In this document: piece by piece, positions 1 through 62,887 of the stretch
Layout: each line of letters starts with the position of its first letter
Position numbering within the stretch: position 1 is the first letter of the stretch
Source: an uncultured Nostoc sp.
GTDB lineage: Bacteria; Cyanobacteriota; Cyanobacteriia; Cyanobacteriales; Nostocaceae
NCBI RefSeq assembly: GCF_937863485.1
Contig: NZ_CALMFY010000103.1
Location: 83,037-147,036 of the forward strand
DNA length: 64,000 bases
Direction of reading: 5' to 3'
The notes under the pieces: model-generated
The model's input: the letters and a program-made list of their open reading frames with translations, nothing else
Databases searched by the model: none
Told to the model about the DNA's origin: nothing
Program-made: the position numbers and the translations under genes

Positions 1-479
1 GGATTAGCCTCAAAGGGAAACCCCGCTGCATATATTGGTTCATTAACTGTGATCGTTGATAAATTTCCGAGGGGGGCTAAAGTATAGTTAGCATTAGCAC
101 GGAACTCCAACAGAGCCAGATCATTGCCCTGAAAGTTGACTCCCTTAACCAAGCTAGCTGGGTGTTTTTTCCCGTCTTCTGTTTGGATTTGAACAGGTTT
201 ACCTGATTCTAAAACGTGTCGATTAGTCATAACCGTATAAACTCGACCATCTTTCCTAAGTAAAATACCTGAGCCACTATTCTCGCCAGATAAAATCTTT
301 ACGGTTATTGATCGAGCCAGCTGTTTGAGTTGTTCTGGCGATCGCTGGGAAGTTGGCTGTTGAGCAGAAACTTTTGGGGAAAAGATGCTCAAATAAACAG
401 CTTGTATAGGCAACATCAACAGTATGCCCATCCAGGCAATCAGAGCCAGTGAGCGATGGTACATTAGTTTTTGTCTCAT
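1..479 (-). CDS. Trypsin-like serine protease (HtrA/S1-like), C-terminus cut off by window edge
   Basis: Reverse-strand reading from ATG at 479: N-terminal membrane/signal segment, then GSGILLRKDGRVYTVMTNRHVLESG...NDLALLEF, typical of S1 protease His and Asp motifs; frame open to the window edge. Confidence 0.8.
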   Translation of the reverse strand, partial: MRQKLMYHRSLALIAWMGILLMLPIQAVYLSIFSPKVSAQQPTSQRSPEQLKQLARSITVKILSGENSGSGILLRKDGRVYTVMTNRHVLESGKPVQIQTEDGKKHPASLVKGVNFQGNDLALLEFRANANYTLAPLGNLSTITVNEPIYAAGFPFEAN

Positions 480-552
480 GTTGCTTTTACCACTTGCAAA
501 TTTCTATACAAAATATGTTTAATGAGCATCCCACTACCTACCAAGATTAGTA

Positions 553-1071
553 TTAATTTTTTACCTGTGCTGCTTTTCCGTTTAGTAATATACTCATATC
601 AATGTATATTTGAGAAGAAGCATCTTCAGATTGAAGAATGGGTCCGCGAGCACGATAACCTATATCTACAAGGTTTTGAAGTACTGAACTAGCGTTCCGA
701 TCCGACTTAAGTGTGAATAGTAATTGACTACAAGGCCCACCGTATTGACTAGCCGCACATATCACTGCTTGACCACTAGAAATACCAGATGTCATGTAGT
801 TCAAAATACCTTTTTCATAGGCATTTTGAAATCTGGAAGATACCTCTTGACACCGTACTTGTGGAGTATAATTTCCTAAATTTTTAACCCAGCGAATCAC
901 CGGAATCTTCTTATTGTTGTAGTTTTTGGCATATGTAGTCCATACACCATTATCACTTCTTTCACAAAAGTAAGTTTGAGCTTGAGCTAAACTGGGTGGA
1001 CTGATAGTAGCAAAACTACTTAGAGCAATTGTACCTGCCGTCAGTACCTGCATAAATAAGTGGGGTTTCAT
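553..1071 (-). CDS. COP23 domain-containing secreted protein
   Basis: 172 aa with signal peptide (MKPHLFMQVLTAGTIALSSFATISPPSLAQA) and YFCERSDNGVWTTYA...VIRWVKNLGNYTPQVRCQEVSSRFQNAYEKGILNYMTSG, COP23 family pattern. Confidence 0.85.
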   Translation of the reverse strand: MKPHLFMQVLTAGTIALSSFATISPPSLAQAQTYFCERSDNGVWTTYAKNYNNKKIPVIRWVKNLGNYTPQVRCQEVSSRFQNAYEKGILNYMTSGISSGQAVICAASQYGGPCSQLLFTLKSDRNASSVLQNLVDIGYRARGPILQSEDASSQIYIDMSILLNGKAAQVKN

Positions 1072-1397
1072 CGTTGGTAGTTCTCATTAAAGATGATGAA
1101 AGTCATAGATACTATGTATTTACCACAAAATGACAACCATATTACATTTTAAAGTAATGTAAAGATTTATTCAGGTATAACCCACTAAAATAACTTAATC
1201 CCTTATCAAACATCCTCTGAGAAAGAAACTCAGTTTCTGTATGCAGTTGGGTTTCTCAAATATCAGTTAGCTGTAAATGATCACTATGTTACTGTCACTA
1301 ATAGCTGATTGAGGAATTTTTGGTAACAAATAACGGCTTTTAAGCAATAGAAAAATCTGTATATTTGCTGATTTATCTTGTTAAAATCCTGTACTTA

Positions 1398-2792
1398 CTA
1401 ATTAATTTCCAAGGAATTAATCATTGTTTGTGCTGTTGGGAAATATTCAGCATATTTAGCCACATCTGCCGTATAAGTTATTATATATGCTTGATTATTT
1501 TTGACCATCCAAACTTGCAAGCGTTTAATGTTCATTCCATCTTCTTTAAAAGTGTAAATAACTTGATATGCAGGTCTATTTGCTAGTTGACTTTTGCCCT
1601 CTGCAATAATTTTAATATTTGGATCAGACTGTTTGACTTCATCCAAATAATACTTAGTAAATTGTTCTAATTCTTTATGAGTATATGGGGAATCTTGAAC
1701 AATTAAATTGAGATTCTCTGAATAGGTATCTGCATTACCTTCTTGTGGCGAAATAAATTGAACTAGATTGCCAGTTATGCGGTCTGGAGTTATAGTTTTT
1801 TTCCAAGTTGGGGGATATTTGATGCTGATGCCATAAACGGTATTATTATAAATCTCCAGGCTATTATTACGTAGTATAATGATAAACAAGAAAGCAATAA
1901 CAGTGGCAACAGTAACAATTCCTAAACCAATAATAGCCTTCCGCCAAATTAATTTTACAGGACGATTAGCTGGTGTCAAGTGTCGTAGGGATTGCAAAAC
2001 TTCTGTTGCCGATTGATATCTCTGTCGAAAGTCATACTTGACCATTTTGTCTATAATTTTCGCGAACTGTTGGCTAACCTGTGCTTGATCACGCCAGATA
2101 ATTTCACCTGTAAGATTATCTTTTGGTAATTGGATAGGGTTTAAACTAGTAAGGGCTTGGATACCAATCATTCCGACTGCATAAATATCACTGGATAACC
2201 GGGGCTGACCTTGACTTTGTTCGCTGGGTATATAGCCAGGTGTGCCAATTACAACTGTTGCTGTCATTTGTCCCTGAGCATTCACTACTTGAGAACTGAT
2301 TTGTTTGACTGCTCCAAAATCAATCAGGACGATTTTCCCATCCTGTTGACGCCGCATCAAATTCGAGGGCTTAATATCCCGGTGGATGACATGATGCTGA
2401 TGGACGAACTCTAATGCCTCTAAAATATCCTGCAACAGGGCAATAACCTTTTCCTGACTCCACTGCTTCTTCGGATTGATTTCATGACTCAAGTCATACC
2501 CTGCAATAAATTCTTGAACTAAATAAAACTTTTGGTCTTCTTCAAAATGCGCCAACAAGCGCGGAACCAGGTCGTGGCTCCCTAAGCGGTTGAGTACTTG
2601 AGCTTCAGTCGCAAATAGCCGTCGGGCGTGGGACAAAGTATTTAAATCTGTGGCTTTAGGCGAGAAGTGTTTCACAACACACTGGTCTTTATCAGGCAAT
2701 TTCCTATCAATAGCTAGGTAAGTAGTACCAAAACCACCTTCTCCCAGTTTGCTGATAATTTCGTAACGCCCATCCAGGATTTTGCCTATCAT
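1398..2792 (-). CDS. Serine/threonine protein kinase with C-terminal transmembrane helix and PsbP-like extracytoplasmic domain
   Basis: Kinase motifs GEGGFGTTYLA, HRDIKPSNLM, DFGAVKQ; TM helix IIGLGIVTVATVIAFLFIIIL; then YGISIKYPPTWKK... PsbP/DUF1795-like tail. Confidence 0.88.
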   Translation of the reverse strand: MIGKILDGRYEIISKLGEGGFGTTYLAIDRKLPDKDQCVVKHFSPKATDLNTLSHARRLFATEAQVLNRLGSHDLVPRLLAHFEEDQKFYLVQEFIAGYDLSHEINPKKQWSQEKVIALLQDILEALEFVHQHHVIHRDIKPSNLMRRQQDGKIVLIDFGAVKQISSQVVNAQGQMTATVVIGTPGYIPSEQSQGQPRLSSDIYAVGMIGIQALTSLNPIQLPKDNLTGEIIWRDQAQVSQQFAKIIDKMVKYDFRQRYQSATEVLQSLRHLTPANRPVKLIWRKAIIGLGIVTVATVIAFLFIIILRNNSLEIYNNTVYGISIKYPPTWKKTITPDRITGNLVQFISPQEGNADTYSENLNLIVQDSPYTHKELEQFTKYYLDEVKQSDPNIKIIAEGKSQLANRPAYQVIYTFKEDGMNIKRLQVWMVKNNQAYIITYTADVAKYAEYFPTAQTMINSLEIN

Positions 2793-60400: not shown

Positions 60401-62887
60401 AACCTCAGCGAACTGCTCCATTTGTTCAAAGTTAGCGTCCAGGAAAGCAGAATTAGCTGCACCTTCATACAGAACGAGCGCAAGAGTGTAGTGGCTCTGC
60501 CAGCAATTGCCCCTCAACAAAGAAATGCCCGTGTTGAAATAGTTTAAAGCCGCTCCATAAGCCGTTGCACCCTTAGCTTTCTGTCCAGCCATCAAGTTTA
60601 ACTGCACGAGTTCCTGTTGCTCCGTCTCATCCTCAATCAGCGATATCCCCTTGTTGAGGTGGTTAACGATCGCAAAAATCTGCTTATCCTGTTCACTCGC
60701 ACTCGTTGCTTGTTGCAGCAAACGTCCAATATTCAGGTGGGTGATTTGCTTTTTCTCTTCTGGAATCAGAGAATACGCCGCTTGCTGAACGCGATCGTGC
60801 AAAAAGCGATAAGTTGGATTCGCTGCTGCATTACAAACCAACGCATTGTCAGACTGAATAAAAAACTTATAGATTTCCGTATTCGGAATAATCAAACCTT
60901 CTTGTAATGCTTTCCACAGTACAGCAGCCGTATCTTCAGGAAACTGCCGGGACACGATCGCCAATGTCGCCAAATCAAACTCTGCTCCAATACAAGCCGC
61001 CAACTTTAACATATCCTGAGTTTGTGTCGGCAACTTTTGCAATTGCAGTGCCATAAACTCGACGACATCATCGGTGATCGCTAAAGCTCTAACTTGGGCA
61101 ATATCACACTGCCAATGCCGTGCTTCCCAGTCAAAAGTAATTTGTTCCTCTTCATAGAGTGCCTTGAGAAACTGAGTCGCAAAAAAGGGATTACCCTTAG
61201 TTTTTTGGTATACCAGTTCGGTCAACGGTTGAGCCAGGGAGCGATCGCAATTCAACGTATCCGTCACCAACTGATTCATATCAACTAGACTTAACGATTG
61301 CAGCGTAATGCTATTGACCACTGCCCCAGTTTTGACGATCTCATCTACGGTTAGGATGAACGGGTGAGCCGATGATACTTCATTATCCCGATACGCACCT
61401 AAGATTAATAAATGTCCTGTCTGTTCCATCAACAATTGTAGCAATTTCAGCGATGCCGAATCTGCCCATTGCAAATCATCCAAAAACATTACTAATGGAT
61501 GTTCTTTACTAGTAAAGACTTGGGTAAACTTTTGGAATAATAAATTAAATCTATTTTGTGCCGCACTTCCTGATAATTCTGGAGCAGGTGATTGTTGACC
61601 AATAATTCTTGATAATTCGGGAATTACTTCAATAATTACTTGTCCGTTCTCACTTACCGCCTCTAAAATCTTGCTTTTCCATTGTTGAATTTCTGCATCG
61701 CTTAGAGTTAACAATTGCCCCATCAAATTCCGAAACGCTTGTACAAATGCCGAAAAGGGAATATTTTTCTGAAATTGGTCAAATTTACCTTTGATAAAAT
61801 AACCGCGTTGACGCACAATCGGTTTATGAACTTCGTTAACTACAACGGTTTTACCAATCCCGGAAAAACCCGCAACCAGCATCATTTCTGTTGCACCAAG
61901 GCTGACTCGCTCAAATGCTTGCAGTATAATTTCTACTTCTGTTTCTCGTCCATAAAGTTTATCGGGAATAAGAAAGCGATCGCATACATCTCTTTGTGCA
62001 ACTGAAAAACTTTCAATTTTACCAGTTGACTGAAGTTGAGTTAAACAATTTTCTAAATCATATTTCAGTCCTAATGCACTCTGATAGCGTTCTTCGGCAT
62101 TTTTTGCCATCAATTTCATGACAATATCTGAAATCGATTTAGGAATTTTGAATGGCTCCAAAGGAGCAGGAAGTTTGGCAATATGACAATGCACCAACTC
62201 CATCATATCCTTGGACTCAAAGGGTAACTTTCCTGTGAGTAATTCGTAGAAAGTGACACCCAGTGAATAAAAATCAGTCCGGTAGTCAATCCCCCGATTC
62301 ATTCTTCCTGTTTGTTCTGGGGAAATATAAGCAAGTGTCCCTTCTAACACATTGGGACTGATCAGCGTTTGAGTTTCTCGTGGTAGTAAAGATGCAATAC
62401 TAAAGTCAATTAATTTTACTTGTTTTGTTTCTGGATTAATTAAAATATTCGCAGGTTTAATATCTTTATGAATAATGCGATCGCGGTACAGTATATCTAA
62501 GATATTGCACAGGGCGATCGCAATCTGTAAAAACTCTGTGAGATTTTGTAGACTTGACCCTATTCCCGATTCTTTAAGAGAAATCCCCCCAAAGTCTTCC
62601 ATCACCAACACATAGCCATTTTGATAAGGTTCTAGGCTATAGGTTTGGATGATTAGGGGTGAGTTAAGATTTTTGGCAACGGTATACTGATTGCGAAACT
62701 GCACCAGTTCGCTGAAACTGGGATATGGATTTTTCAGCAGTTTAATCACTACTCTTAAGGAGTCAGTTTCTCGATAACCTCGATAAACTAGGGTTTTTGA
62801 ACCATTATAAAGTTGTTCCTTAACTTGATATCCGGGAATAGTAACTAGAGTGGTAACCATACTGCTAAATCCTGACGATTTCCACAT
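57488..62887 (-). CDS. Trifunctional Ser/Thr kinase / AAA ATPase / GAF-sensor histidine kinase
   Basis: HKDIKPANILINPE, FSIASLLPRE; AGFSGIGKTVVVNEVH; GAF region; H-box VAGVAHEMNNPLGFIY; GKGTGLGLAIARQI. Confidence 0.95.
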   Translation of the reverse strand: MWKSSGFSSMVTTLVTIPGYQVKEQLYNGSKTLVYRGYRETDSLRVVIKLLKNPYPSFSELVQFRNQYTVAKNLNSPLIIQTYSLEPYQNGYVLVMEDFGGISLKESGIGSSLQNLTEFLQIAIALCNILDILYRDRIIHKDIKPANILINPETKQVKLIDFSIASLLPRETQTLISPNVLEGTLAYISPEQTGRMNRGIDYRTDFYSLGVTFYELLTGKLPFESKDMMELVHCHIAKLPAPLEPFKIPKSISDIVMKLMAKNAEERYQSALGLKYDLENCLTQLQSTGKIESFSVAQRDVCDRFLIPDKLYGRETEVEIILQAFERVSLGATEMMLVAGFSGIGKTVVVNEVHKPIVRQRGYFIKGKFDQFQKNIPFSAFVQAFRNLMGQLLTLSDAEIQQWKSKILEAVSENGQVIIEVIPELSRIIGQQSPAPELSGSAAQNRFNLLFQKFTQVFTSKEHPLVMFLDDLQWADSASLKLLQLLMEQTGHLLILGAYRDNEVSSAHPFILTVDEIVKTGAVVNSITLQSLSLVDMNQLVTDTLNCDRSLAQPLTELVYQKTKGNPFFATQFLKALYEEEQITFDWEARHWQCDIAQVRALAITDDVVEFMALQLQKLPTQTQDMLKLAACIGAEFDLATLAIVSRQFPEDTAAVLWKALQEGLIIPNTEIYKFFIQSDNALVCNAAANPTYRFLHDRVQQAAYSLIPEEKKQITHLNIGRLLQQATSASEQDKQIFAIVNHLNKGISLIEDETEQQELVQLNLMAGQKAKGATAYGAALNYFNTGISLLRGNCWQSHYTLALVLYEGAANSAFLDANFEQMEQFAEVVLTHARSWLDRINVYDTRIRACMAQNQLLEALQLARFVLEPLGVHLPEQPTPADIGQALQHTQIQLSNSSIESLLHLPQMTAPDKKAAMMILSTIMSPAYQAAPNLMPLVVFAQFDLSVQYGNAPESIHGYGLYGLMLIAILGDIEAGYCFGQLEINLLQYLQSPKLAAAALFDFNCFFKHWKKPAKTSLAGLLQAYAGGLEVGDFNLAALSLLVYDHNTYFTGQELSSLKLVLEDHRKVMQQLRQHTYLHTQSLYHQVVVNLLGASTEPYRLVGEYCDEHKMIQLYQKTGEVTALHQVYLNKLILCYLFQDYEQALENANKAAQYLRGMAGLMSVPLFHFYDALEQLALYPDASETDQSSILERVATNLEKLSGWAAYAPSNQAHRCALIVAERCRVLEARAEAIENYDRAIALAKEHEYLNEEALANELATKFYLEWGKERIAKDYLIEAYYAYSRWGAKAKITDLEQRYPQLLQVILQQQRLNFNPQETLVFHATFSSTCTNTTGSTNISDVLDFTSALKAAQAISSSLELDTLIASLTRIILENSGAKKAVLLLPQENTWQVRAITLIHHQKIQTILDPQLLDTCQNIPIKIINYVKHTQETIVINNCQTDIPGVIEEYMLEYQPKSILCTPIINQGHLIGILYLENKLTSEVFTNERLQVINLLSSQAAISLENARLYQQAGQALQDLQQAQLQIVQSEKMSALGNLVAGVAHEMNNPLGFIYASLQQAKPSLADIVEHLKLYQSSLPNPDDEIIDHAKEIDLNYSLEDLPKIIDSMVMACDRLNNISTSLRTFSRADKDYKVPFNIHEGIDSTILILKHRLKANEQRPAIEVITDYGDLPQIECFPGQLNQVFMNLLANAIDALDESNTGRSFKEIKTNPNRIIIKTFRENESVKIAIIDNGKGMNESVKQKIFDHLFTTKGVGKGTGLGLAIARQIIEETHNGKLSFNSVLGEGTEFLIEMKF

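Follow-up and report, generated by a model that had tools for sequence, protein, structure and literature searches.

Do three neighbouring Nostoc genes, encoding a Ser/Thr kinase, a COP23 protein and a trypsin-like protease, form a single signalling unit that spans the cell envelope? The question is raised by one end of the window analysed here, a stretch of 64,000 nt from an uncultured Nostoc sp. It matters because such a triad offers a direct test of how signals from the envelope are passed on to kinases in cyanobacteria, and because a triad that moves as a block, together with fusions that reveal its partners, provides a direct route to testing the role of COP23. The sequence-only reading proposed a relay of this kind, for which no described pathway was known to it. 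The openly accessible literature that we searched contained neither an account of the triad nor a mechanistic link of COP23 to trypsin or kinases. Based on the evidence presented below, we put the probability that the kinase, COP23 and the protease constitute a trans-envelope signalling module at roughly 0.55, that is, only slightly better than even.

The three genes and their products

All three genes that had been proposed were identified from reading frames and Pfam matches; they are codirectional on the minus strand, in the order kinase, COP23, protease. The reading frames on one flank resemble enolase and argC, and those on the opposite flank glyoxalase and ClpB (names read from sequence).

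The kinase (464 aa, 1398..2792) matches both the Pkinase profile, over the full length of the domain (E=1.6e-40), and PsbP_2, above the profile cut-off (E=5.7e-9). Its kinase domain (residues 10-268, about 1989-2765) has the Hanks-type catalytic motifs HRDIKPSNL and DFGAVK, with HRD and DFG intact. The sole transmembrane segment detected (residues 287-305, 1878..1934, hydropathy 2.85) lies between this domain and the C-terminal one (residues 311-460, 1413..1862), which is presumably an extracytoplasmic sensor. In an AlphaFold model (pLDDT 85) the C-terminal domain has the PsbP fold, with PsbP/CyanoP as the best PDB matches; the nearest is CyanoP (2xb3, TM 0.76, E=4.8e-10), and DcrB (6e8a) and LpqN (6e5d) match as well. 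Pfam, hydropathy and the modelled fold thus bear out the proposed architecture of a kinase with one transmembrane helix followed by a PsbP-like domain, and we infer from this topology that the PsbP domain lies outside the cytoplasmic membrane.

PASTA kinases such as PknB and Stk1 consist of a cytoplasmic Hanks-type kinase, one transmembrane helix and an extracytoplasmic C-terminal sensor, and the Nostoc kinase appears to share this layout. However, it differs from them in its PsbP-fold sensor (Pfam detected PsbP_2 in the kinase and no PASTA repeats) and in being genetically coupled to a protease and a secreted partner protein. The ectodomain likewise shares its fold with PsbP, CyanoP, DcrB and LpqN, but it is joined to a kinase through a transmembrane helix and shows no sign of a photosystem II role. 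Kinases as such are numerous, about 55 in this genome and about 50-80 of the Hanks type per genome in filamentous cyanobacteria. A further kinase domain is found near the end of the window (62081-62830; G000:C103:145117-145866) in a reading frame of ~1800 aa, which probably encodes a large multidomain sensor.

The COP23 gene (172 aa, 553..1071) begins with a signal peptide, identified by eye (residues 1-29/31), and matches the Pfam profile PF14218 with E=1e-37 over positions 1-137/138. The domain itself occupies about 583-975, and the alignment shows that the four Cys of the family are retained. The predicted signal peptide and the topology signals support the earlier suggestion that COP23 is secreted to the same side as the PsbP domain. 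In its domain, its export and its four conserved Cys the protein resembles the rest of the family. Published work on COP23, on the other hand, deals with diel or circadian expression in N2-fixing cyanobacteria (PMC6315102, PMC11131595, PMC10153697), whereas the Nostoc gene adjoins those of a trypsin-like protease and a kinase. In N2-fixing unicells COP23 is an abundant, diel-regulated protein (PMC6315102), and its gene ranks with those showing the strongest diel regulation or the highest expression. Our structure model of COP23, of moderate confidence, had no PDB match (best TM about 0.25), so that the fold gives no clue to the biochemical role. We also considered that COP23 might be a divergent PsbP domain, since this would explain why it replaces PsbP in one of the fusions described below (L186), and rejected the idea: profile comparison gave a probability of 0.1%, and the folds differ.

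The window holds only the N-terminus of the protease (159 aa, 1/3-479), comprising the signal peptide and the start of the first trypsin domain (Trypsin_2, E=1.5e-12 by Pfam); the edge truncates the gene, and the second trypsin domain, the TPRs and the PDZ domain all lie beyond it. The full gene (G000:C103:80357-83515, equivalent to L003:7321-10479) specifies a protein of 1052 aa that carries a signal peptide, two Trypsin_2 domains, an array of TPRs and a PDZ domain. As read from the sequence, the catalytic His-Asp-Ser set is complete in both trypsin domains, which carry GMSGGP motifs. Only nine genes of the trypsin-like family are present in this genome. The protease had been described as a membrane-anchored S1 enzyme; its trypsin-like nature and export hold, but a cleavable-looking signal peptide makes anchoring improbable. 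Since this export signal ends in a site, V/A-x-A|Q, that is retained across orthologues, the protease is probably soluble and secreted. HtrA/Deg enzymes are also exported trypsin-like proteases with a PDZ domain. The Nostoc enzyme differs from them in its tandem trypsin domains, its long TPR array and its COP23 partner gene, and instead of the HtrA/Deg order, in which PDZ directly follows trypsin, its PDZ domain stands near the C-terminus after the TPRs.

Transcription and inheritance of the locus

The short gap between the COP23 and protease genes had been taken as a sign of one transcript. This gap (480..552) is 73 nt rather than 74, and it is conserved: five of the six orthologous loci have 72-88 nt here, the sixth 252. 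No promoter was found within it, and co-transcription of COP23 and the protease is probable. This fits RNA-seq data from Arthrospira, in which COP23 and two serine-protease genes, consecutive in locus tag, fall together (log2FC -1.97, -2.08 and -2.10) and make up three of the 21 changed genes (PMC13114239); COP23 figures there as a table entry.

A transcript that includes the kinase is another matter. The kinase-COP23 gap is 326 nt here and varies from 224 to 524 bp among seven aligned Nostoc loci; its kinase side is unalignable, whereas about 105 bp directly 5' of the COP23 ATG is conserved (1072..1180 in the window). This contrast suggests that COP23 is probably transcribed from its own promoter and that the kinase and the COP23-protease pair probably form separate transcripts, which disfavours a single three-gene operon. 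The conserved block includes a candidate from a promoter scan, TTGTCA-16-TAGTAT (1136-1109), weak on its own, and an operator-like palindrome, TTACATT-N7-AATGTAA (1142..1162, about 70-91 nt 5' of the ATG), possibly a repressor or activator site. Matches to 11-12 of the 12 arm positions occur only upstream of this COP23 clade, apart from a single hit in a set of 1,110 other genes. We therefore discarded the palindrome as a general COP23 operator.

That the kinase is apparently not simply in an operon with COP23 counts against the three-gene module. It favours instead the alternative that the unit consists of COP23 and the protease only, COP23 serving as an inhibitor, chaperone or substrate-adaptor, with the kinase regulating other things, or controlling the expression of the pair but not sensing its state. 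The published co-expression, limited to COP23 and proteases, points the same way.

Inheritance in Nostoc, in contrast, joins the kinase to the pair. The triad is inserted between enolase and a glyoxalase-like gene, and in 39 of 51 Nostoc genomes the site is empty, the two flanking genes being direct neighbours 256-772 bp apart. In nine genomes the whole triad adjoins enolase with its gene order unchanged (split over two contigs in one of them), and the remaining three have other genes or rearrangements at the site. A partial triad, of one or two genes, was found at this site in none of the 51 genomes. In other words, the triad is inherited there as a block.

Gene neighbours and fusions across cyanobacteria

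To what extent does this association recur? The COP23 neighbourhoods that we surveyed came from about 60 genomes belonging to the genus and order, from a set spanning the class and from 37 named loci; clustering of COP23 at 60% identity gave 114 clusters, which are not fully independent by descent. Among the dereplicated clusters, 55 of 108 have a codirectional trypsin-like gene directly after COP23 (+1), and 9 of 100 have a codirectional kinase directly before it (-1), where about 1% would be expected. Kinases account for about 0.6-1.3% of genes, with gene totals estimated from genome size, and even a base rate of 1.35% gives p=9e-6 for the nine. Away from -1 and -2, codirectional kinases occupy only 3 of about 889 positions. 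Long COP23 reading frames were the reason for including seven of the 20 loci of the class-wide set (L191-L197), and three of these (L192, L193 and L195) add to the kinase count at -2, leaving the nine at -1 unaffected.

The much higher frequency of protease adjacency favours the two-gene unit, and a kinase does not adjoin 55 of the 75 COP23-protease pairs, which counts against the module. Nonetheless, the kinase link is codirectional and position-specific, and PsbP-kinases occur near COP23 far more often than by chance. PsbP_2 occurs 40 times in the 60 genomes, mostly as the ectodomain of kinases of ~480 aa. Of these occurrences 20 lie within 5 kb of COP23, against 0.35 expected, although the count repeats orthologous sites and amounts by eye to about eight or nine distinct arrangements. 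The two genes may be upstream codirectional, divergent, convergent or downstream codirectional (L144), suggesting that the link has been retained through rearrangement or formed repeatedly.

The sequence-only reading was to be abandoned if the gene order did not recur in other genomes. It does recur: Trichodesmium (L161) has the same order of kinase, COP23 and protease, and Tychonema and Microcoleus have kinase-COP23-COP23-protease-COP23-protease. All COP23-adjacent kinases examined have one transmembrane helix after the kinase domain, and their C-terminal domains vary (PsbP, GUN4, TPR-like, coiled-coil-like). In the Trichodesmium kinase (L161, 1238-2686) the domain is GUN4, which is tetrapyrrole-binding; since it follows the transmembrane helix, it would sit outside the cytoplasm.

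Of all the evidence, two natural fusions argue most strongly for COP23 as part of the outer half of a signalling path. Oscillatoria sp. PCC 10802 (L186) encodes a 958-aa protein, AAA_35-kinase-TM-COP23, and an Oscillatoria princeps MAG (L183) encodes CHAT-TM-COP23-trypsin; in both, the transmembrane segment separates COP23 from the cytoplasmic domain. The presence of kinase and COP23 in a single polypeptide counts against a unit of COP23 and protease only. Protease-COP23 fusions, present in several further genomes, speak for such a unit. A half-COP23 (profile positions 1-53) also stands beside trypsin or is fused to it in Microcoleus and relatives (L167, L169, L170, L185, L188, L189).

COP23 occurs in other settings as well. 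A near-universal branch of about 260 aa (L004 7131-7907, G000:C104:31337 and relatives) forms a separate deep clade; it is single-copy and has neither a protease nor a kinase neighbour, which counts against the module. This branch may be the ancestral housekeeping COP23. In L192-L195 a different subtype, with a long Pro-rich N-terminal extension, lies one or two genes from a kinase.

A putative signalling path and its alternatives

If the module is real, COP23 and the double-trypsin/TPR/PDZ protease would be exported and would act jointly outside the cytoplasmic membrane. COP23, stabilised by disulfides, would serve the protease as partner or adaptor, and the protease might sense or process protein of the envelope or of foreign origin. 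The state of COP23 and the protease would then be read by the PsbP-fold ectodomain of the single-pass kinase, which would respond on the cytoplasmic side with Ser/Thr phosphorylation. Domain order, topology signals, catalytic motifs, recurrence, all-or-none inheritance and fusions can all be seen in the sequences; physical contact between the three proteins, the direction of the signal, its ligand and its substrates are inferred. A broader version, which we advance tentatively and with less than even confidence, is that COP23 is a shared outside sensing or adaptor domain of modular protease-coupled signalling, its outputs (Ser/Thr kinase, AAA_35-kinase, CHAT peptidase) being interchangeable. 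An exported COP23-protease head would be joined to these inside outputs either as neighbouring genes or within one polypeptide.

Among the alternatives, the unit of COP23 and protease only fares best. Weighing the probable separate promoter of COP23, protease adjacency and protease fusions against the all-or-none triad, the position-specific kinase and L186, we regard it as unlikely, yet as the most serious competitor of the signalling module.

It is less probable still that the locus serves filamentous cyanobacteria in conflict or defence, as a module in which an outside COP23-protease detector would be coupled to inside effectors (kinase, AAA_35 or CHAT peptidase). The CHAT and AAA_35 fusions and the patchy presence of the triad among Nostoc genomes would suit such a role, as would a copy that Nostoc sphaeroides has on its mobilizable plasmid p3, where kinase, COP23 and serine protease span the start of the record (apparently the same locus as L210). 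Trypsin/caspase conflict systems (PMC7159879) resemble the related COP23 architectures in combining trypsin with CHAT and in their multicellular hosts. However, those systems are NTPase-centred, and neither COP23 nor PsbP is mentioned in that survey, the main one of conflict systems; a MoxR/VMAP/STAND-type NTPase, as expected of ternary NTPase conflict systems, was not found between the enolase and glyoxalase flanks. Moreover, the copy in the window occupies a stable housekeeping site beside enolase, and COP23 is also the diel-regulated abundant protein of N2-fixing unicells (PMC6315102). Viral contigs contained no relatives in a search that reached close relatives only, and a phage origin was set aside.

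Finally, the accidental adjacency of three common genes, conceivable given the abundance of kinases in Nostoc, is contradicted by the recurrence statistics, the PsbP-specific link, the all-or-none site and the fusions, and we give it hardly any credence.

PsbP-kinases are also found apart from COP23. Two of them (L134 and L150) adjoin trypsin-like genes instead, and a family of 474-aa kinase-PsbP proteins stands alone (L135, L137, L139, L140, L141, L142, L146). Some genes of this family have neighbours (about 420, 168 and 289 aa) in common with the COP23-protease loci L038, L039 and L044, which suggests that the family and these loci derive from a split ancestral locus. A 101-aa PsbP fragment is located close to COP23 in L152.
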